DNA from: Planosporangium thailandense
Lineage (GTDB): Bacteria > Actinomycetota > Actinomycetes > Mycobacteriales > Micromonosporaceae
DNA: 46,668 nt
Direction: 5' to 3'
NCBI RefSeq assembly: GCF_011947195.1
Contig: NZ_JAATVY010000039.1
Coordinates: 1-46,668 of the forward strand
Shown here: in pieces, positions 13,877 through 40,624 of the stretch
Layout: each line of letters begins with the position of its first letter
How positions within the stretch are numbered: the first letter of the stretch is position 1
Translations under genes and position numbers: made by a program
The notes under the pieces: generated by a model
Told to the model about the DNA's origin: nothing
Databases searched by the model: none
Seen by the model: only the letters and a program-made list of their open reading frames with translations

Positions 13877-15580
13877 TCAGCGGTCGGCGACCGTCCGGTC
13901 CCGGCCGGAGCGCTTGGCGATGTAGAGGTTGTGGTCGGCCCGCCGCAGCAGCGCGGACTGGCTCGCGCCGGCGGTCGGCACGGTCGCCACGCCGATGCTC
14001 GCGGTCACCGGAAGGCTGCCCGTCATGGGCTGCCAGGGGTACGAGCGGATCGACTCGTGGAGCTCGTCGAGCCGGGCCTCGGCCGCCGCGGCGTCGAGGC
14101 CGGGCAGTACGAGCAGGAACTCCTCACCGCCGAGCCGCGCCGCGAACGCCCCCGTGGTGGCGGCCCCGGCGGAGCCGGACCGGTCGTCCAGGCCCGCCAC
14201 CAGCAGTTCGCTGAAGGTTCGCAGGACCTGGTCACCCGCGTCGTGCGAGTACGTGTCGTTGATCCGTTTGAAGTGGTCGATGTCGACCAGGGCGATGGAC
14301 AACGGCGCCCCGTTGTTCGCGGCCTTCCCCAGCAGGACCGGTAACTGGCTGTCGACGTACCGCCGGTTGAACAGGCCGGTCAGCGGGTCGCGCAGCGCGA
14401 GGTCCCGGTAGTGCCGGCTGGAGCGGCGCGCCTCGTCGGTCTCGAACACCGCCTGCAGGATGCGCGCCCGGGCGTCGCGTTCCGCGTTGTACACCGCGGT
14501 TGCCTCGGCGTGGAACACCTTGTACTGGGCGTAGGCGTCCTCGAAACAGCCGAGCGCCGCGTACAGTTCAGCTCGCTCGCCCCACGCCCGCATCCGGGTT
14601 CCCCGCAGGTCGGCGCGGTCGCAGATGCGCAGGCACTCGTCGAGCGTCGCGCGGGCCTGCTCGGTGGCGCCCCGCAGCCGCTGGATCTCGGCCAGGGTGA
14701 GCAGGCATTCGGCGTATCCGTCCACTTCGGTGGTCGCCAGCACGTCCGCCGCCTCGACCACGGCCCGCAGGGTCTGCTCCGCTTCGGCGTAGCGGCCCAG
14801 CCGCATCCGGGTGCGGGCGAGCGTGTCGAGGCTGAACGAGTCCAGGGCGATTCCGGTCGCTTGCGCCACCTCGGCCATCCGCTCGGCCGTCGCGAGGGCC
14901 CGGTGCGGCTCGCCGGCCTCGTGCTCCATGTACGCCAGGTTGTTGAGCACCACGAGCCGCAGCCGTACGTCACCGGCCGCCTCGGCGATCCGCTCGGCCT
15001 CGGCGTAGCGCTGCCGGGCCTGGTCGAACGAGGCGGTCTGGGCCAGGGCGCCGGCCAGGGTGGCGAGGTGGTACCCGCGGACCAGTACGGGTGCGGTGTC
15101 GTCGAGGTACTCGATGCCGCGTAGCGCGTGCTCCAGTGCCGCGGACGGGTCGCCCAGCTGCCGGTAGAACGTCGCAAGCTGCCGGTGGCTGCGCGCGCGC
15201 AGGTAACGGTGGTCGTGCTCGGTGGCCCACCGGTTCACCTCGCGGGCGATCCGCCCGCTCTCGGCGGTCTCGCCCCGGCGGCCCAGGACCGAGGCCTGTA
15301 CGAGCCGGGCCCGGCGCTCGAGGTCGGGCAGTGCCGCCGCGCGCGCCTCGTGCTCCAGGCGTACAGCCAGGTCGAACGCGTCCTCGAGCGCTCGAGGCGC
15401 GAGCGTGTCGAGGGCGTCGAGGTGGGCGCGGAGTTCGGCGACGGTACGCATTGGCCGGTCGAGGGCGGCCAGGATGTCACCGGCGTGACCCGTCCCGTCA
15501 GCTGCGGACGGCAGGGGGCTGGACGTGCCGGCAGCCGATTCGCCGACCGGGGACGGCGTCCGCACGCTGAACTCGAGCAC
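13877..15580 (-). CDS. TPR-GGDEF diguanylate cyclase
   Basis: 567 residues, no membrane helices. Residues about 60-370 are helical TPR-like repeats (for instance LVRGYHLATLAGALAQTASF and VLNNLAYMEHEAGEPHRAL), followed by a GGDEF domain with RDPLTGLFNRRYVD at its start and RLGGEEFLLVLPG (GGEEF near residue 482). No RxxD inhibitory site precedes it. It should synthesise cyclic-di-GMP in the cytoplasm with the TPR region as sensor or partner-binding module. GTG 15580 follows AGGGTGAG. It is a paralogue of the gene at 30568 and of the decayed copy divergently placed at 15880. Confidence 0.93.
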   Translation of the reverse strand: MLEFSVRTPSPVGESAAGTSSPLPSAADGTGHAGDILAALDRPMRTVAELRAHLDALDTLAPRALEDAFDLAVRLEHEARAAALPDLERRARLVQASVLGRRGETAESGRIAREVNRWATEHDHRYLRARSHRQLATFYRQLGDPSAALEHALRGIEYLDDTAPVLVRGYHLATLAGALAQTASFDQARQRYAEAERIAEAAGDVRLRLVVLNNLAYMEHEAGEPHRALATAERMAEVAQATGIALDSFSLDTLARTRMRLGRYAEAEQTLRAVVEAADVLATTEVDGYAECLLTLAEIQRLRGATEQARATLDECLRICDRADLRGTRMRAWGERAELYAALGCFEDAYAQYKVFHAEATAVYNAERDARARILQAVFETDEARRSSRHYRDLALRDPLTGLFNRRYVDSQLPVLLGKAANNGAPLSIALVDIDHFKRINDTYSHDAGDQVLRTFSELLVAGLDDRSGSAGAATTGAFAARLGGEEFLLVLPGLDAAAAEARLDELHESIRSYPWQPMTGSLPVTASIGVATVPTAGASQSALLRRADHNLYIAKRSGRDRTVADR

Positions 15581-30567: not shown

Positions 30568-32184
30568 TCAAAAGGGCGCGGCCACCACCCGGTCGCGGCC
30601 GGCACGCTTCGCTGCGTACAGGTTCTGGTCCGCCGCCCGTAGCAGATCCGCCGGTGAGCCGGTGTCCGCGCTGCTCACGGCGACGCCGAAGCTGGCCGTC
30701 ACCGGCAGCTGGCCGGTCAGCGGCGCCCAGTCGTGCGCGTGCACGAGCCGGCGTACCTTCTCGCAGCGCCGCACCGCCTGCGCGCTGTCATCTCCGGGCA
30801 GCACCAGCACGAACTCCTCGCCGCCGAGCCGGGCGGCGAAGCCACCCTCGGCCGGCGCGCTGCCGAGGTAGCCCGCGACCGCCTTGAGGACCAGGTCGCC
30901 CGTCTCGTGTGAGCACTGATCATTGATCTGCTTGAAATGGTCGAGGTCGACGATCGCGACGGCGACGACGCCGCCGGTCTCGGCCGCCTCGGCCAGCAGC
31001 GCCGGCAGCCGCTCCTCCACACGACGGCGGTTGTACAGGCCGGTGAGCGGGTCGCGGAACGACAGCTCCCGGAAGCGGTCGGAATCCTGCCGCGCCTCCG
31101 CGGCCTCGAACACGGCCTGGGTGATGCGCGCCCGGGCGTCACTCTCCGCCTGGTGCAGCTCCGCCCACTCCCGATGGAAGACGAGGTGCTGCTCGAACGC
31201 TTCCCGGTATCGCCCCTGGCCGGCGTACAGGTGTGCCCGGGCGAGCAGGGCGCTGGCCCGGATCTCGGCAAGGCCGCCCTCGTCGGACAACGCGAGACAC
31301 CGGTCCAGCGTCTCCTCGGCCGCTGCCGTGTCGTCCACGCGGCGGTACACCTCTGCGAGGGTCAACAGGCAGCTGGCGACCGCGTCGGCCTCCGTGGTGA
31401 CGACCTGCGCGTCGGGCGCCGCCACGCGCAGCAGCGCCGCCCGCGCCGCCTCGTACTCGCCGTTGGCCAGGTACGCCTCTCCCAGCGTGTCGATGAAGGA
31501 GGCCGGCAGCACCACATCGTGCGCATCGGCCAGCGTCTGCATCCTGCGGGCGACAGCAAGGCTCGCGGCGGCGTTGCCCGCCTCGTACTCGCAGTACGCA
31601 AGGTTGTTGAGCACCGACAACCGGTGCCGCAGCGTGCCGTGTGCCTCCGCGAGCTGCCCGGCGCGCCCGTACCGGCGCCGCGCCGCCGCGTACGACCCGG
31701 TCATCGACAGCGCGACGGCCAGCGTCAGCTCGTGGTCGAACCGGACGACCGGGTGCGTGTCGTCGGGCGTGAGCTCCACCGCCCGCACCGCATCCTCGAG
31801 GGACCGCTGCCGGTCGCCCAGGTAACGGAAGAAGCGGGACAGGACCACGTGGCTGCGGGCAAGCAGGTACTGGTGCCGGTTCGCGTCGGCCCACCGGTTG
31901 ACGTCACGGGCGGTGCGCCCGCCGGCCGCGGTCTCGCCGCTGCGCAGCAGGATGTCGGCCTGGACCAGCCGGGCTCTCAGCTCGAGGTCGACCAGCCCGA
32001 GGGCTGCGGCGGCCCGCTCGACCCGCTCGGCCCGCGCCATGTGCCGTGGATCGAACAGCTCCGTTTCCAGGCGTACGCTTTCGCGTCGCAGCTCTTCGGC
32101 ATCCGCCGGCCCGGTCGGCGAATCCGCGACGGCGTTCTGACTCACAGCGGAGAGATCGGCGTCCACCCCGCCAGCATTAGCCAA
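30568..32184 (-). CDS. TPR-GGDEF diguanylate cyclase (second paralogue)
   Basis: 538 residues with TPR-like repeats (about 50-360, for instance HRLSVLNNLAYCEYEAGNAA) and a GGDEF domain starting RDPLTGLYNRRRVE with RLGGEEFVLVLPG (GGEEF near residue 454). No RxxD inhibitory site. Domain order, spacing and many repeat sequences match the gene at 13877. TTG 32184 is the longest start; a GTG at 32166 is equally possible and neither has a clear ribosome-binding site. It follows the methyltransferase gene in the same direction at a 51-bp distance and could be transcribed with it. Confidence 0.92.
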   Translation of the reverse strand: MANAGGVDADLSAVSQNAVADSPTGPADAEELRRESVRLETELFDPRHMARAERVERAAAALGLVDLELRARLVQADILLRSGETAAGGRTARDVNRWADANRHQYLLARSHVVLSRFFRYLGDRQRSLEDAVRAVELTPDDTHPVVRFDHELTLAVALSMTGSYAAARRRYGRAGQLAEAHGTLRHRLSVLNNLAYCEYEAGNAAASLAVARRMQTLADAHDVVLPASFIDTLGEAYLANGEYEAARAALLRVAAPDAQVVTTEADAVASCLLTLAEVYRRVDDTAAAEETLDRCLALSDEGGLAEIRASALLARAHLYAGQGRYREAFEQHLVFHREWAELHQAESDARARITQAVFEAAEARQDSDRFRELSFRDPLTGLYNRRRVEERLPALLAEAAETGGVVAVAIVDLDHFKQINDQCSHETGDLVLKAVAGYLGSAPAEGGFAARLGGEEFVLVLPGDDSAQAVRRCEKVRRLVHAHDWAPLTGQLPVTASFGVAVSSADTGSPADLLRAADQNLYAAKRAGRDRVVAAPF

Positions 32185-32235: not shown

Positions 32236-32838
32236 TCAGTCCCGGACCGCCGTCACGACCGTGTCGATGGCGTCGACACACCGGCCGTCCTCGGTCGTCA
32301 CCGGGCGGCGTGCCCGCTCGGCGCGGCCGATGCGCAGCCCGGGAAGCGTGGCGACGACCGCCTCCGGGCTGAGCAGGATCGCCGGGTCCTGCGGGCCGCC
32401 GATCCCGTCGGTGAGGTTGGTCAGGTCGTGGCCGATGACGACGAGCACGCCACCCGGGGCCAGGGCGCCGGCGGCGCGGGCCAGCACGGCCGCCCGGTCC
32501 GGGGCGGGCAGGTGCAGATAGGCCACCAGCACCGCGTCGAACGCAGCTGCCGGCGGGGCGTACCCGAGGAGGTCGGCGGTCACCCACTCCACCCGTACGC
32601 CGCGGGCGTCGGCCAGGCGTCGTCCCTTGTCGACGGCGACGGGCGAGAAGTCGACGGCGGTGACCTCCCATCCCCGGCCGGCCAGCCATACGGCGTTGCG
32701 GCCCTCACCCGCCGCCAGGTCGAGCGCCCGGCCCGGGGGCAGGGCGGCGAGCTCCTCGACGGCGAACCGGTTGGGCTCGCCGGTCCAGACCAGATCGGGC
32801 GCGGACGCGTAGCGGGCATCCCAGGCGGCACTGTCCAT
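32236..32838 (-). CDS. SAM-dependent methyltransferase
   Basis: 200 residues of class I methyltransferase fold: motif I ALDLAAGEGRNAVWLA (about 38-53), the acidic end of strand 2 in TAVDFSPVAV, and post-motif AFDAVLVAYLHLP. Close in type to the TehB/ubiE-like tellurite-resistance or thiopurine methyltransferase group (opening WDARYASAPDLVWTGEPN is typical). ATG 32838 is preceded by ATGAGG. It is divergent from the TetR gene, with a palindrome in the gap, so it may be its target. Substrate unknown. Confidence 0.9.
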   Translation of the reverse strand: MDSAAWDARYASAPDLVWTGEPNRFAVEELAALPPGRALDLAAGEGRNAVWLAGRGWEVTAVDFSPVAVDKGRRLADARGVRVEWVTADLLGYAPPAAAFDAVLVAYLHLPAPDRAAVLARAAGALAPGGVLVVIGHDLTNLTDGIGGPQDPAILLSPEAVVATLPGLRIGRAERARRPVTTEDGRCVDAIDTVVTAVRD

Positions 32839-32962
32839 GACAGGACCTCATCATCGGTGCGTTGCGCGCACAAGAGATGTACGGATGCGTGTCGGCGCGA
32901 CCACAATCTGCTACAGACCGATACGCTGGCGCGCGGCACCGGTTCATCTCTCCGATGGCACC

Positions 32963-32976
32963 GTGCCGATCGGCAC
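32963..32976. promoter_or_regulatory. Palindrome GTGCCGATCGGCAC upstream of the TetR gene
   Basis: A perfect 14-bp palindrome, flanked by CCGATG on the left and CATCGG on the right so that the symmetry extends with a 5-base offset (32952-32982). It lies 64 bp before the TetR ATG and 124 bp from the divergent methyltransferase, the usual place of a TetR auto-operator. Confidence 0.55.
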
Positions 32977-33040
32977 CATCGGATCGTTGGCTGAAAGCCA
33001 ACGCCGAAGGCGTCACGGTGTTCGTTCAACAGGAAGCACA

Positions 33041-33709
33041 ATGGAAAGCAACAACCCCGTCCCTCAAACCGGGGGTCATATCCGTACGCATGCCGGATCG
33101 TCGACGGCGTCCATCGAGCCCATCGGGCTGCGGGAGCGCAAGAAGCGAGAGACCTTCCGCGCACTTCAGTCCGCGGCCTGGCGCCTGGTCGCCGAGCGCG
33201 GCCTGGAGAACGTGACGGTCGACGAGATCGCCGCTGCCGCGAACGTGTCCAAGCGCACCTTCTTCAACTACTTCGACTCCAAGGAAGCGGCGATCGTCGA
33301 CCCCGATCCGGGCCGGGTCGAGTGCCTGGCGGCGTCGCTGGCGGCGCGACCGGCTGACGAGCCGCCGCTACAGGCGCTGCGGTCGGCCTCGATGGCCAGC
33401 CTGACCTGTCACGCCCGCGACCTGCAGCGCCTGACCACGCTGGTCTGCGCCAACCCGGGCCTGCTCGGGCCACAGGTACAGGCGTTCAACCCGTTGCGGA
33501 AGGTCATCGTCGAATGGGCGGCTGAGCGTACCGGCACCGATCCGGACACCGACATCTACCCGGAACTGCTGGCCGGAGTCACCAGTCTCATGCTGTGGCT
33601 GACCGTGTCCCGGTGGCGGCCGGAGACCGGCGACGAGGCGTTCATCCAGTTGGCGGATGAGATCTTCGTGCTGCTGGCCAACGGGCTGGCCGCCCCGCAA
33701 AAGGGATGA
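33041..33709 (+). CDS. TetR-family transcriptional regulator
   Basis: 222 residues. After a 25-residue basic/polar N-terminus comes the TetR DNA-binding domain (REKK-like LRERKKRETFRALQ, then VTVDEIAAAANVSKRTFFNYFDSKEA). The C-terminal ligand domain is helical and not assignable. ATG 33041 is preceded by AGGAAG and begins where homology to the family's usual N-terminus becomes possible; the frame itself is open from 32837. The nuclease gene starts 25 bp after its stop, and the methyltransferase is divergent; either or both may be regulated. Confidence 0.9.
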   Translation: MESNNPVPQTGGHIRTHAGSSTASIEPIGLRERKKRETFRALQSAAWRLVAERGLENVTVDEIAAAANVSKRTFFNYFDSKEAAIVDPDPGRVECLAASLAARPADEPPLQALRSASMASLTCHARDLQRLTTLVCANPGLLGPQVQAFNPLRKVIVEWAAERTGTDPDTDIYPELLAGVTSLMLWLTVSRWRPETGDEAFIQLADEIFVLLANGLAAPQKG

Positions 33710-33734: not shown

Positions 33735-36017
33735 GTGATCAGTCCGGGTGCACAGATCGAGCGGGATCCCGGCACGGGGTTGACGTTGTTCCCACCCGGT
33801 GCGCCCCGGCAGAACGGGTTCGGATTCTCCACACGGCACGACAGCATCGCCGCGTTGCGAACCTTTGTCACCCGACGGCTGGCCGAGGCCAACGCGTTGA
33901 TACACAAGCCCCACTATGCCGACTGCGCCGCCGTCCTGCCGGTTGTCGTGTCGTTTGTGCCTCGACCTGACAACGACTACAACCCTCGTGCGATCTCGGT
34001 CGCCATGCCACCCGGCGACGGGGGCTCGCCGCTCGACCGGCACATCGGCTACCTGTACGAGAGCCAGCTGCGCTGGTTCGGGGGCGCCATTCACCGGCTG
34101 GCGACCGTCTCGGCCGGCCCGGTCGGATGCCACGGCTGGATCGAGCTGTACGAGATCGACGAATACCAGCGGGAGGAGCTCGAGCGCGACGCCGACCCAA
34201 CGATGTCCGAGGGTGAGCTGCTCACCCCTGCCGAGCAGTTGCGCCTGGGCTACTCCGTCGGAAGCATCCGGCTGAATCTGCCGGATCCGGCGGACATGCC
34301 GGCACTCGTTGACGCGTACGAGCTGTCCCCGGCCCCGGCGACACCCGGCGCGGACGCTGTCGTGGCTGCGCAGCCTGCTGGCGCCCATGACGGCGCACCG
34401 GGTGTCGACCACTCGGAGGTGTTGCGGGCCGCGTACCTCACCCGGCTCGGAGAGGATCTGCGTACCGCGTTTGCCAACCGTGCCGCCACCGGCGCCTGGT
34501 GGCGGCCGACGGCCCGAAGCATGGCCGCGGACCGCCGAGCAGCCGAGGCCGAGAAGCGGCTCGAGCGGTGGAGCGACTACCGGCGCCAGCAGCACCGGTA
34601 CCGGGGGCTGCGGGCCATCAGCCACTCGGTGTACGGATTCGGAAAGGTCCTCGTCGTCGACGAGCACGGAGCACGGGTGGGGGAGTACCACCTGCCGGAC
34701 GGGCCCCTGACCCTTACCGACGAGCGGGTGCGCCCCGACGCGCTGCGGGCTCTCACCGCACATGGGATCACCCCGAAGCGCGGGCAGCAGTTGGCCGGCC
34801 TTGACGATTTCCCGGACGCGCTCGTCCTCGTGATGAGAAGAACCTGGTCGATTCGCGCCGTGCAGGAGTTGGCCGCTGCCGAGAGCCTGCCCGAGATCGG
34901 GACGTTCGAACCCGAGTCCGGCCGCCTCATCGTCTACGCGGCTCCGTACCGGGAGCCTGTCATGACACTGATCCGGCGGCACGGCCACGAACCCGCCACG
35001 GTAAATGTCGCGGCTCCGTCACGGGAGACCGAGAAATGGAACCAGGCCGCGTCCGGCTCCACCAACCAGGCCACGGCGATACGGACCACCGCGCCGCTGC
35101 GGGCGGAGCTCCGCCGATTCATCCCCGCCGAGCACCTCGCCTGCGTCGACATCACCTGGCTGACGGGCCCCACGCCCGAGGGGCTGACCTGGCGGACCCG
35201 GTCCGATCTGGAGAACGACTCCTACTACGTGCGGGAACTCACCGCCCTGTTCGGTGGGTACCGCGGGGAGGTTCGGCTGGCGCCGTGCCGGCTCTGTGGA
35301 GGCAACGCGCTGGCGGTCGGCTCAGCACTGCCGTACTGCTTCGGCTGCTGTAGGCGGGCGCAACGAGGGATACTTCAGGACAACGGAGTCGACGGGCCGT
35401 GGGTCGCGGCGGCGACGTGGGCGATCCGACGACTCGCCGAGATCGAGTTCTCCGGCCCACCGTCACTGGCGCAGCTGACCCGCCTCACCGTGACCGACGC
35501 CGGCCGGGCCGACGAGGCGATGCTCTGCCGCTTCCTCATTCCACGGCCGGAGTTCGCCTGGCCGGCCACCCGGCACCACCGCAAGCCGTATTCGTGGTCG
35601 GAGTGGTTGGCCCGCGCCGGCCTGCTGCGCGAGGGCATGCGGACCGCCAGGGGCACCAGGACGGTCGCCACCGACGGGCACCTGTGCCGGTCCCTGTTCG
35701 AGCGGCACGTCGACGACTTCTTCCACCACTGGGACATCGCGCACGACATTGAGCCGCACTATCCCTATGACAGCGAGCTCAACACCACCGGATTGCGGGC
35801 CGACTGGCGGCTGGCGGACGGGACGTTCGTCGAGGCGCTCGGCTTGCCGGACGAGAAGGCATACGCCGCGAAGGTCGAACGGAAGCTCGAGTTGGCGCGA
35901 CGAACCGGCATCCGCGTCGTCACCATCACGGCTGACGACCTGAGTCGCCTCTCCACGGTCTTCGCCCCCTGGCTGACCGGCGTGATCGGTTCACGTGCCT
36001 CGAGCGCCGGCCCGTGA
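33735..36017 (+). CDS. Large protein with HIRAN-like domain, zinc knuckle and PD-(D/E)XK nuclease
   Basis: About 760 residues, not a standard family to my knowledge. Residues about 62-115 look like a HIRAN domain (VPRPDNDYNPRAISV ... HIGYLYESQLRW), a fold that binds DNA ends. The middle holds a YGFGKVLVVDEHGARVGEYH beta module and a region of unknown fold. At about 517-537 is a four-cysteine knuckle (CRLCGG ... YCFGCC). The end (about 660-750) has VDDFFHHWDIAHDIEPHYPY, LRADWRLADGTFVEALGL and YAAKVERKLELARRTGIRVV, then ITADDL: the pattern of the nuclease found at the end of some helicases ([IV]EYWG...Y...K..RK). Base composition is less extreme than its neighbours. GTG 33735 is the preferred start; the frame is open from 33657, inside tetR. 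Confidence 0.75.
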   Translation: MISPGAQIERDPGTGLTLFPPGAPRQNGFGFSTRHDSIAALRTFVTRRLAEANALIHKPHYADCAAVLPVVVSFVPRPDNDYNPRAISVAMPPGDGGSPLDRHIGYLYESQLRWFGGAIHRLATVSAGPVGCHGWIELYEIDEYQREELERDADPTMSEGELLTPAEQLRLGYSVGSIRLNLPDPADMPALVDAYELSPAPATPGADAVVAAQPAGAHDGAPGVDHSEVLRAAYLTRLGEDLRTAFANRAATGAWWRPTARSMAADRRAAEAEKRLERWSDYRRQQHRYRGLRAISHSVYGFGKVLVVDEHGARVGEYHLPDGPLTLTDERVRPDALRALTAHGITPKRGQQLAGLDDFPDALVLVMRRTWSIRAVQELAAAESLPEIGTFEPESGRLIVYAAPYREPVMTLIRRHGHEPATVNVAAPSRETEKWNQAASGSTNQATAIRTTAPLRAELRRFIPAEHLACVDITWLTGPTPEGLTWRTRSDLENDSYYVRELTALFGGYRGEVRLAPCRLCGGNALAVGSALPYCFGCCRRAQRGILQDNGVDGPWVAAATWAIRRLAEIEFSGPPSLAQLTRLTVTDAGRADEAMLCRFLIPRPEFAWPATRHHRKPYSWSEWLARAGLLREGMRTARGTRTVATDGHLCRSLFERHVDDFFHHWDIAHDIEPHYPYDSELNTTGLRADWRLADGTFVEALGLPDEKAYAAKVERKLELARRTGIRVVTITADDLSRLSTVFAPWLTGVIGSRASSAGP

Positions 36018-37525: not shown

Positions 37526-40500
37526 ATGTCCCGCGCGCGCATCCAACGAGCGGCCATCGCCGCCTTACTGTTGTCCACAGTGGGCCTTTCCGGCCCGGTG
37601 CTCGCCGTCCCGGCGTTCGCCAACCCGGCTGGGACCGGTCTGGTCATCAGCGAGGTTTACGTCAACGGCGGCTCGTCCGGCGCGAGCTACCTCAACAAGT
37701 TCGTCGAGCTTTACAACCCCACGCCGAGCGCCGTGTCGCTGACCGGCGACACCCTGCAGTACCGCGCGCCCAAGAGCACCGTCGTTCCCAGCGGCACGCA
37801 GGTGTTCACGCTTTCGGGGACGGTGGCCGCGCACGGCCACTTCCTCATCCAACTGCCAGGCAACGGCGCGAGCAGCAACCCCGGCGCACCGTTGCCCACG
37901 CCCGACCTCAGCACCGGTGGCAGCGTCAACCCGGGCGCGGCGGGCGGCACACTGTACGTGGCGGCCAGCACGTCCGGCGTGCTTCCCACCGACGGCTCCG
38001 TCATCGACAGGATCGGCTGGGGGACCAGCAACTCGCCGGAGGGAACCGCTCCGAGCGGCAACTCGGTCGCCCTCAGCTATCAGCGTGACGCAACCGGTAC
38101 GGACACCGACAACAACGCCGCCGACTTCCACACTGCCGCTCCCACACCGCAGGACGCGGCCTCCGATACGGGTAGCGGCGGCGGCACAGCCACGGTCACG
38201 GTGACGAACCCCGGCACCCGGAACGCGACGGCCGGCGCCGCGATCGCGCCACTCACCCTCAGCGCCTCGGGCGGCACCGCACCGTACACGTGGACGGCGA
38301 CCGGCCTGCCCTCCGGTCTGGTGCTCGCCTCGGACGGTGTCGTCTCGGGCACCCCGGCCGCGGCCGGCACGTCGTCGGTGACGGTGACCGCGACCGACGC
38401 GACCGGTGCGACCGGCTCGGCGACCTTCAGCTTCCAGGTCACCTCCGCGCCGACGATCGTCCCGATCGCGTCGATCCAGGGCACGAACACCGACACGTCG
38501 CCGTACGTCAACCAGACCGTGACGACCGAAGGCGTCGTGACCGCGGCGTTCCCGAGCGGCGGCTTCAACGGCTTCTTCCTGGAGACCGGCGGCACCGAGG
38601 CGGACGACGCGACGCCGGGCGCCTCCGACGCCGTGTTCGTGTACGGATCGGTCGCGGCCGGACAGGTCGCCGTCGGCGAGAGCGTCCGGGTCACCGGCAA
38701 GGTGCAGGAGCACCAGGGCGAGACCGAGATCGACAGCCCGACGGTCACGAAGCTCGACAACCCGCTGCCGCCCGTCGTGCCGGACGAGATCCCGTGGTCC
38801 GACCTCGCGACGAGTGCGCAGAAGGAGGCGCACGAGGGCGAGCTGATCGCACCGCAGGGCGAGTTCACCGTGTCGGACAACTACGACGCGAACTACTACG
38901 GCTCGTTCACCCTGGCCGCGGGAAACACGCCGCTGCGCCAGCCGACCGACGCCGGACGGGCCGGAAGCGCCGAGGCGCGGGCCGCGGCCGCCGACAACGC
39001 CGCCCGGACGATCACCCTCGACGACGGCTCGAGCTGGAACTACAGCACCAGCACGTACGCCGGCAAGCCGCTGCCGTGGCTCACTCCGGACAACCCCGTC
39101 CGCGTCGGCTCGAAGGTGACCTTCCACCAGGCCGTGGTCCTCGACTACCGCTACTCGTCGTGGAACTTCCAGCCGACGCGGCAGGTCACCGACGACGGCT
39201 CCGCGGTCGCGACCTTCAGCGACACCCGGACCGGGAACGAGAAGCCGGCCACCGTCGGCGGCACCAGCCTGGCGACGTTCAACGTCGAGAACTACTTCCC
39301 GCTGACCGGGCAGGCGTACGTCGCCAAGGGGCTGGGCACCTGCACCTACTACAACGACCGGGCCGGCACCCACATCACCGTGAACACCTGCACCGGCACC
39401 GACGGCAGCCCCGGCCCGCGCGGCGCCGCCGACGACGCCAGCTTCGCCCGGCAGCAGGCGAAGATCGTCACCGGCATCAACCGGCTCGGCGCCGGCATCG
39501 TCTCCCTGGAGGAGATCGAGAACTCCGCGAAGTTCGGCGAGCCCCGCGACACCGCGCTCGCCGGTCTCGTCGACGCGCTCAACGCCGCCGCCGGTTCGAA
39601 GGTGTGGGCGTACGTGCCGTCGCCGTCCGCCGACAAGCTGCCGTCGCTCGACGAGCAGGACGTGATCCGTACGGCGTTCATCTACAAGCCGGCGCAGGTC
39701 GCGCTCGTCGGGCCGGCGACGGTGCTCACCGGCGACTCGGACCCCGGCCAGCCGTTCTCGATCGCCCGCGAACCGCTGGCGCAGGGTTTCAAGAAGGCCG
39801 GCACCTCCGACGCCGACGCGTTCCTGGTCGTCGCCAACCACTGGAAGTCGAAGGGCAGCGGCACCCCGCTGTACGACGGCGACACCGAGGACACGTCGTC
39901 GCCGGCGGTCGACCAGGGGGCGTTCAACGCGACCCGGGTGCACGAGGCGCAGGACGTGAACGCCTTCGCCACGCGGGTGGCGACGAGCCTGGGCACGAGC
40001 CGGATCTTCCTGGTCGGCGACTTCAACGCGTATACCCACGAGGACCCGATGGAGGTGCTGTACGCCGACGGCTACACCGACCTGGGCAGCGCCGTCGACC
40101 CGGCGGAGTCGACCTACTCCTACAACGGCCTGGAGGGCTCGCTCGACCACGTGCTAGCCAACGGCGCCGCCCACGCGATGGTCACCGGGGCGGACGTGTG
40201 GCAGATCAACGCCCAGGAGGCGGTGGCCTACGCCTACAGCCGCTTCAACTACAACGCCACGCTGCTGTTCAACGGCGGCGACCCGTTCGCCGAGTCGGAC
40301 CACGACCCGGTCGTCGTCGGGCTGACGCTGCCGGCGACGCCCGCCTGGAACGCCTCGACGATCTACAACTCCGGCGACACGGTGGCCTACCAGGGGTCGG
40401 TCTGGCGGGCGCTGTGGTGGAACCAGCACCAGGCGCCGGGTAGCCCGTACGGTGCCTGGGAGCAGATCGTGACCGCCCCCGACGGCACCGCGATCTGGAC

Positions 40501-40624
40501 CCCCTCGCGGATCTTCACCACCGGCGACGTCGTCGTCTACCAGGGCAAGAAGTACGCCGCCCAATGGTGGACGCGCAACCAGGCGCCCGGCCAGCCCTAC
40601 GGGCCCTGGCGGAGCGCGGGCTGA
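37526..40624 (+). CDS. Secreted multidomain ExeM/NucH-type endonuclease with chitin-binding-like modules
   Basis: 1032 residues. Signal peptide (1-33, cleavage after AFA), lamin-tail domain (about 35-205, LVISEVYVNGG ... FVELYNPT), putative Ig-like domain (about 225-312), OB-fold of the NucH type (about 315-415), and an endonuclease/exonuclease/phosphatase domain (about 575-930) with LATFNVENYF, SLEEIEN, VVANHWKSKG, LVGDFNAY and ESDHDPVVVG. Two CBM5/12-like modules follow (WNASTIYNSGDTVAYQG... and IWTPSRIFTTGDVVVYQGKK), binding chitin or cellulose-like polymers. The enzyme should degrade extracellular DNA, possibly while attached to chitin, to gain phosphate and nucleosides. ATG 37526 follows GGAGG. 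A strong terminator lies 15 bp downstream. Confidence 0.95.
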   Translation: MSRARIQRAAIAALLLSTVGLSGPVLAVPAFANPAGTGLVISEVYVNGGSSGASYLNKFVELYNPTPSAVSLTGDTLQYRAPKSTVVPSGTQVFTLSGTVAAHGHFLIQLPGNGASSNPGAPLPTPDLSTGGSVNPGAAGGTLYVAASTSGVLPTDGSVIDRIGWGTSNSPEGTAPSGNSVALSYQRDATGTDTDNNAADFHTAAPTPQDAASDTGSGGGTATVTVTNPGTRNATAGAAIAPLTLSASGGTAPYTWTATGLPSGLVLASDGVVSGTPAAAGTSSVTVTATDATGATGSATFSFQVTSAPTIVPIASIQGTNTDTSPYVNQTVTTEGVVTAAFPSGGFNGFFLETGGTEADDATPGASDAVFVYGSVAAGQVAVGESVRVTGKVQEHQGETEIDSPTVTKLDNPLPPVVPDEIPWSDLATSAQKEAHEGELIAPQGEFTVSDNYDANYYGSFTLAAGNTPLRQPTDAGRAGSAEARAAAADNAARTITLDDGSSWNYSTSTYAGKPLPWLTPDNPVRVGSKVTFHQAVVLDYRYSSWNFQPTRQVTDDGSAVATFSDTRTGNEKPATVGGTSLATFNVENYFPLTGQAYVAKGLGTCTYYNDRAGTHITVNTCTGTDGSPGPRGAADDASFARQQAKIVTGINRLGAGIVSLEEIENSAKFGEPRDTALAGLVDALNAAAGSKVWAYVPSPSADKLPSLDEQDVIRTAFIYKPAQVALVGPATVLTGDSDPGQPFSIAREPLAQGFKKAGTSDADAFLVVANHWKSKGSGTPLYDGDTEDTSSPAVDQGAFNATRVHEAQDVNAFATRVATSLGTSRIFLVGDFNAYTHEDPMEVLYADGYTDLGSAVDPAESTYSYNGLEGSLDHVLANGAAHAMVTGADVWQINAQEAVAYAYSRFNYNATLLFNGGDPFAESDHDPVVVGLTLPATPAWNASTIYNSGDTVAYQGSVWRALWWNQHQAPGSPYGAWEQIVTAPDGTAIWTPSRIFTTGDVVVYQGKKYAAQWWTRNQAPGQPYGPWRSAG

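Follow-up and report, generated by a model that had tools for sequence, protein, structure and literature searches.

The gene and its surroundings

The window analysed here, i.e. the whole stretch of 46,668 nucleotides from contig NZ_JAATVY010000039.1 of Planosporangium thailandense, carries on the + strand at 33735..36017 a gene that starts with GTG and encodes a protein of 760 amino acids, and it is the only copy in its own genome. A longer frame of 786 amino acids would start at an in-frame ATG at 33657 and overlap the open reading frame (ORF) of a TetR-type regulator. The GTG start is preferred because the open frame in six relatives (L030–L033, L036 and L037) begins only 12 bases ahead of the matching start; the remaining start positions in the alignment of 29 rows discussed below were our choice. 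The motifs PDNDYNPRAISV...RHIGYLY, CRLC (518)...CFGC (535), RADW (688–691), VEALG and YAAKVERK were all confirmed in the 760-residue ORF. A Pfam search with the protein gave no family at E≤10, NCBIfam and PDB sequence searches gave one chance match each (E 0.084 for NCBIfam), and the PADLOC search returned one candidate model, PDC-S69, at residues 642–744 (E 1.5e-6). Neither a Walker A nor a DExx pattern was found, in agreement with the first-pass annotation, which had described a 760-residue protein without helicase motif. A helicase fragment was rejected as an explanation, since these patterns are missing and the relatives are of similar size, and a spurious or frameshifted ORF could be dismissed because the HIRAN motif is kept in 24 of 28 aligned relatives and dN is lower than dS.

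Directly upstream lies the ORF of the TetR-family regulator (32837..33709, +; Pfam TetR_N 2.6e-14, TetR_C_14 1.9e-9), which ends 25 bases before the GTG, as had been annotated, and which may be co-transcribed with the nuclease gene. TetR is not a conserved partner of the family, as TetR_N was present in 2 of the 62 neighbour proteins (one neighbour set) scanned with Pfam. The regulator ORF contains some 110 residues ahead of the helix-turn-helix (HTH), with TetR_N at residues 112–151, so that translation probably starts at some position downstream of 32837, and it has the lowest GC3 among the called ORFs of at least 150 amino acids.

The GC content of the nuclease gene (0.696) is indeed slightly lower than that of the rest of the window (0.717), but the acquisition that had been read from this difference is poorly supported by it: among 28 loci of relatives, the GC content of the gene is below that of the flanks in 12 and its GC3 below that of the neighbours in 16, and the TetR ORF of the window has a lower GC3. 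Composition was thus set aside as proof of transfer.

Three neighbours in the window that were scanned with Pfam are a regulator, a protein without family assignment and a secreted multidomain protein. A large secreted-type protein is encoded at 37526–40624 (+), with lamin-tail, Ig-like, endonuclease/exonuclease/phosphatase and CBM5/12 matches; at E≤1e-30 none of the three genus-mates has a match to it. Two further genes, at 30568–32184 (−) and 13886–15370 (−), belong to one protein family that is GGDEF-like as judged by eye. At E≤1e-30 this family is matched 16 times in the own genome and 2, 5 and 3 times in the three genus-mates, pointing to an expansion in this lineage.

Parts of the protein and their conservation

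The window protein was aligned with 28 of the 35 loci that were obtained from a scan of GTDB genomes, leaving aside loci that are split, broken or short (L045, L053, L054, L057, L059, L061 and L062); a further alignment also omitted the four members that lack the HIRAN motif (L050, L051, L052 and L060). Residues C518, C521, C535, C538, E656, D690, E700 and K717 are invariant in all 29 rows, and K713 is a lysine in 28, which implies that the patterns exceed chance. The alignment and an AlphaFold2 model (mean pLDDT 83, pTM 0.61) give the order of parts as a HIRAN-like N-terminus, a linker, a middle region, a CxxC/CxxC site and a C-terminal nuclease core. In all 28 domain-by-pair comparisons (7 pairs) dN was below dS, and in 5 of the 7 pairs dN was highest in the HIRAN part. 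These predicted parts are well supported as far as fold and conservation are concerned. The first-pass annotation had itself named what would speak against it, namely absence of the two folds, or homologues that are all in housekeeping positions and conserve neither glutamate nor lysine; neither situation was encountered.

The HIRAN-like domain comprises about residues 64–182 (33924..34280, +), on the evidence of hhalign, a separate structure model and Foldseek. The consensus of the N-terminal part in the 29-row alignment is LVPRPDNxY(D/N)xxA(I/V)SV...RHxGYxY, and N80, Y82 and N83 of the window protein occupy the positions of the N-x-Y-(D/N) motif. Pfam HIRAN (PF08797) does not match the window protein and was found in only 4 of the 29 members (best E 0.0011), while two plasmid-encoded proteins scored 14.6 and 13.0 bits against it, below the cut-off of 24.7. 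Since the gathering score is not reached, we use the term HIRAN-like. When compared by hhalign with six actinobacterial HIRAN domains found by a PF08797 search, a set of which the profile retrieves 3k2y and HLTF in the PDB, the region matched at 95.3% (E 2.1e-8). A separate model of residues 1–200 (pLDDT 91.9) gave Foldseek matches of which ranks 1 to 12 are all HLTF HIRAN or 3k2y, HLTF HIRAN being the first, although with E values of 0.075–0.44 and none at E≤0.001 against the PDB. The N-terminus annotated as HIRAN-type thus appears to be a divergent HIRAN-like fold, which shares the motif N-x-Y-(D/N)-x-x-A...GY and its leading fold match with established HIRAN domains (PF08797; HLTF 4xzf and 4xzg, lp_0118 3k2y), whereas the protein as a whole differs from HIRAN proteins such as HLTF in staying below the Pfam cut-off and in having no SWI2/SNF2 motor. 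Y82, which is a tyrosine in 24 of the 29 rows, is probably equivalent to Y93 of HLTF, a residue that borders the dinucleotide pocket of this protein (PMC4666394). A separate HIRAN match, above the Pfam cut-off, occurs in the same genome on contig 104, in an open frame of 236 amino acids (L064).

The middle region, on which the first-pass annotation was silent, is by sequence comparison an internal duplication covering residues 288–422. Repeat 1 (residues 288–348; 34596..34778, +) and repeat 2 (residues 356–422; 34800..35000, +), which forms strands and a helix in the model, matched each other in hhalign at 90.1% (E 1.6e-6, 34 columns), as compared to at most 3.2% in six control comparisons. 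It is followed by the CxxC...CxxC motif (35271..35354, +), annotated earlier as a knuckle in the middle of the protein, of which the invariance of the four cysteines agrees with a predicted zinc-type site. The zinc part of the C-terminal profile aligns with ribosomal L43 proteins at E 0.45.

The C-terminal core (residues 642–744; 35658..35966, +) is PD-(D/E)XK-like as judged from the model, Foldseek, conservation and the PDC-S69 match. Its modelled order is alpha-beta-beta-beta-alpha-beta (helices 654–665 and 708–724; strands 670–672, 691–693, 698–702 and 728–732), with the invariant acidic residues D690 and E700 at strands 2 and 3. The canonical lysine of the ExK motif, which should lie two places past E700, is absent: position 702 is L in 22 rows, W in 5, F in 1 and A in 1. 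The assignment to PD-(D/E)XK therefore holds for the core order and for E656, D690 and E700, but the missing ExK lysine is the reason why we call the core PD-(D/E)XK-like. Lysines are retained elsewhere in the core, at 713 and 717, and displaced lysines are known in the PD-(D/E)XK superfamily. Among the best 50 matches of the whole model to the PDB, none reached E≤0.001, and five exceeded a probability of 0.5, namely three TnsA chains, I-Bth0305I and an R2 retrotransposon protein, all of which we take to carry PD-(D/E)XK-type nucleases. Lower in these 50 were Hjc (0.28) and FAN1 (0.23), with metallo-beta-lactamases in between at about 0.1. Five matches to viral models did reach E≤0.001, including a HIRAN protein and a Holliday junction resolvase; Endonuclease I, DUF2726 and DUF559 proteins also occur among the viral models matched. 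The C-terminal profile places E656, D690 and E700 on phage endonuclease I (2pfj), with an E value (0.48) at the level of chance. With TnsA, I-Bth0305I, phage endonuclease I and Hjc, which presumably are all members of this superfamily, the window protein shares the core order and the placement of Glu, Asp and Glu; it differs from them by a displaced lysine and the absence of a significant sequence match. A match to 8vd6 (E 2.7e-7) was rejected, as its score is summed over a repeated HTH-like stretch in the C-terminal extension of some relatives, which is absent from the window protein, and proteasome profile matches (E about 1) were attributed to chance.

Regarding the combination of modules, the founding paper on HIRAN reportedly mentions that in eukaryotes HIRAN occurs in fusion with a nuclease that has the restriction-endonuclease fold. 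Plant FAN1 joins HIRAN with VRR-Nuc (PMC5704218, PMC4402529), and the Arabidopsis enzyme, which also has a putative zinc finger of the UBZ type, acts in crosslink repair (PMC4402529). The architecture is thus not new in kind, since like modules of three kinds already occur together in one helicase-free protein (PMC4402529), and the statement that they are known to be attached to helicases needs this correction. The bacterial family does, as had been supposed, seem to be undescribed: among open-licence papers, searched by titles and the beginnings of abstracts, no description of a bacterial HIRAN/zinc/PD-(D/E)XK-like family was found. It differs from plant FAN1 by the nuclease subfamily, the duplicated middle region and its patchy occurrence as a bacterial accessory gene; VRR-Nuc (PF08774) gave no match in the window protein at E≤10 and is not among the 17 Pfam families of the 29 members (E≤1). 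Prokaryotic HIRAN domains have been termed uncharacterized (PMC11090510), whereas the HIRAN domain of human HLTF has a role in fork remodelling (PMC4666394). HIRAN and HipA genes were reported beside diDNase genes in genomic islands of gram-positive bacteria (PMC11706625); PMC2292703, PMC5512222 and PMC4103454 mention HIRAN in references or general remarks.

Distribution, modularity and gene context

Matches, with partial ones counted, were obtained in 6 of 298 genomes of the order, the own genome included (5 of 297 others), in 8 of 394 genomes of the class and in 1 of 4 of the genus, again with the own genome, so in none of the three genus-mates; several of the order and class matches cover the nuclease part only. 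A further scan, in which 6 candidates were scored per genome, gave matches in at least 5 of 396 genomes, including the own. The 35 loci from GTDB all have actinobacterial titles, 18 of them Streptomyces, but the scan used an alignment of 8 rows and required one of two short patterns, so that absence elsewhere is not proven. In viral contigs and phage records no relative was found (57 viral stretches carried a pattern, none of them related), which says little either way. Matches occur in 8 of 72,556 plasmid records, none covering more than 80% of the query in one place, and one record has a full-length copy on a conjugative plasmid. The window protein is at most 50% identical over its whole length to a Streptomyces copy and 40–41% identical to the copies from Micromonospora, a genus presumably of the same family as the window's organism, and a tree grouping it with two Micromonospora rows was rejected (p-AU 0.0175), which, with long branches present, would be moderate evidence of transfer. 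An empty site could not be demonstrated in the genus-mates, where the region is not syntenic.

An aspect absent from the first-pass annotation is that, as far as the alignments indicate, the zinc–nuclease part is a unit that recurs without the HIRAN-like part. The four rows without HIRAN motif retain the cysteines and the nuclease, shorter proteins of 322 (L014), 336 (L012) and 369 (L013) residues match the C-terminal part only, and so do plasmid-encoded proteins of 364 and 551 residues. The reverse is also found, since plasmids of Streptomyces NBC_01276 (L100, 7752–8678; 308 amino acids) and Arthrobacter StoSoilB3 (L105, 7974–8429; 151 amino acids) encode a HIRAN-like domain without nuclease; these proteins could be remnants, or they might regulate or counteract the full-length one. 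In seven members the protein is extended at its C-terminus, and Pfam HTH models give weak matches, each in at most three members. Copies at six of the 35 loci (L045, L053, L054, L057, L061 and L062) are in pieces or shortened, which would reflect decay or may in part be due to assembly errors.

A conserved neighbour was sought across 43 loci, but no family other than that of the gene was present at more than 6 of them, which argues against an operon partner. Only 18 of 630 pairs among 36 loci share at least two neighbour families, one of these 18 being the same locus twice, and many of the neighbour families are metabolic. For a comparison with known defence genes, 122 of 126 proteins encoded within two genes on each side of 34 loci outside the window (62 and 60 proteins; three of more than 1,600 amino acids and one at a locus edge were omitted) were searched with PADLOC, next to 61 of 64 control proteins from 16 arbitrary regions (one of 1,260 amino acids and two others omitted). 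Counted as families and not as proteins, so that the numbers do not amount to a test, this gave 20 for the 62 neighbours, 137 for the 60 and 14 for the controls; at least 27 of the 137 stem from one protein, a type IV restriction-like neighbour that directly precedes the copy in Actinotalea. Strong matches were few in neighbours and controls alike, without clean enrichment. All 29 members themselves match PDC-S69, and two match HEAT_CxxC_PDDEXK. The window protein covers positions 180–278 of the 289 of the PDC-S69 model, i.e. the nuclease part only, and in a literature search of open-licence papers no published text on this candidate was found.

An N6_Mtase (PF02384) match lies within 15 kb in 6 of 33 host genomes (L038, L039, L046, L053, L054 and L060), as compared to 0.44 expected under uniform placement, a lenient null, and with a distance limit that was set after the positions had been seen; L048 and L058, both from metagenome-assembled genomes, were left out of the 35 loci. 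Strong matches alone leave 5 genomes, or 4 if the syntenic L039 and L046 are taken as one (P 0.001). The match at L038 is weak, the copies at L053 and L054 are split and L060 lacks the HIRAN motif, so that an unbroken copy with this motif is near N6_Mtase only at L038, L039 and L046. The distances are based on matched contigs for 7 loci and for the others on the assumption that contig numbers track accession serials, as they do in those 7; 13 further contigs that were compared did not match the loci. On a Streptomyces plasmid, a short zinc–nuclease relative (L104, 7308–8402) lies amid an N-6 DNA methylase, an endonuclease VII-type gene, a Pycsar effector and transposases. Taken together, the gene context is suggestive of defence islands and falls short of proof.

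Possible functions

The scattered occurrence in genomes, the plasmid copies and the lack of a conserved partner support the view that this is an accessory gene. DNA-end binding, metal-dependent cleavage and defence are what we infer for its product. A mechanism that would follow from the predicted parts is that the HIRAN-like domain, of a kind known to bind DNA ends, selects what is cut (most probably a free 3' end, a junction or a structure resembling a stalled fork), that the middle duplication and the zinc site serve to hold the DNA or the domains together, and that the PD-(D/E)XK-like core cuts the DNA in a metal-dependent reaction. Invading DNA would then be recognised by its structure, and not by sequence or methylation. 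Given that the protein lacks a motor, that no methyltransferase is a conserved partner and that the distribution is scattered, use of such a single-gene nuclease against incoming phage or plasmid DNA appears the likeliest single role, which we put forward tentatively.

The protein could also be a structure-specific nuclease for repair or replication that acts on host forks or crosslinks, as the bacterial counterpart of plant FAN1 or a junction resolvase. The module set and crosslink-repair role of the Arabidopsis enzyme (PMC4402529, PMC5704218) argue for this, as do the weak fold matches to Hjc and FAN1 and, at chance level, the profile match to phage endonuclease I. However, the gene is rare and patchy within the order, class and genus, its loci share few neighbours, copies are located on plasmids, and six of 35 loci are split, broken or short, even if this is maybe partly due to assembly errors, which makes a repair function rather unlikely. 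A nuclease that serves mobile elements, by homing-like spread, plasmid competition or a transfer function, would agree with the fold matches to TnsA and I-Bth0305I, with relatives on plasmids, with a phage-type integrase 0.8 kb from the L037 copy (among the matches listed, from which no rate follows) and with the C-terminal extension in seven members, to which a few weak HTH matches belong. Yet the small number of plasmid records with a match, none with more than 80% of the query in one place, and the absence of a transposition partner, as no neighbour family goes beyond 6 of 43 loci, leave this quite unlikely. It would finally be conceivable that the nuclease fold is retained in a catalytically inactive or weakly active sensor or regulator of DNA structure, as the missing ExK lysine might suggest. 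We regard this as improbable, in view of the strict conservation of E656, D690, E700 and K717, the near-invariance of K713 and the fact that, of the parts compared, the nuclease has the lowest dN in 5 of the 7 pairs.

Returning to a role against incoming DNA, these proteins may form a class of bacterial immune nucleases that are modular and act as single proteins, with a common zinc–nuclease core combined with interchangeable recognition heads. The HIRAN version would sense invader DNA by its ends or fork structures alone and need neither motor nor guide nor modification mark; such a generalization is speculative and at present rather doubtful. A HIRAN nuclease that is encoded by one gene and has no helicase would offer a simple way to find out what is recognised by HIRAN domains of bacteria, and it could show whether sensing of DNA structure suffices to discriminate an invader from self.
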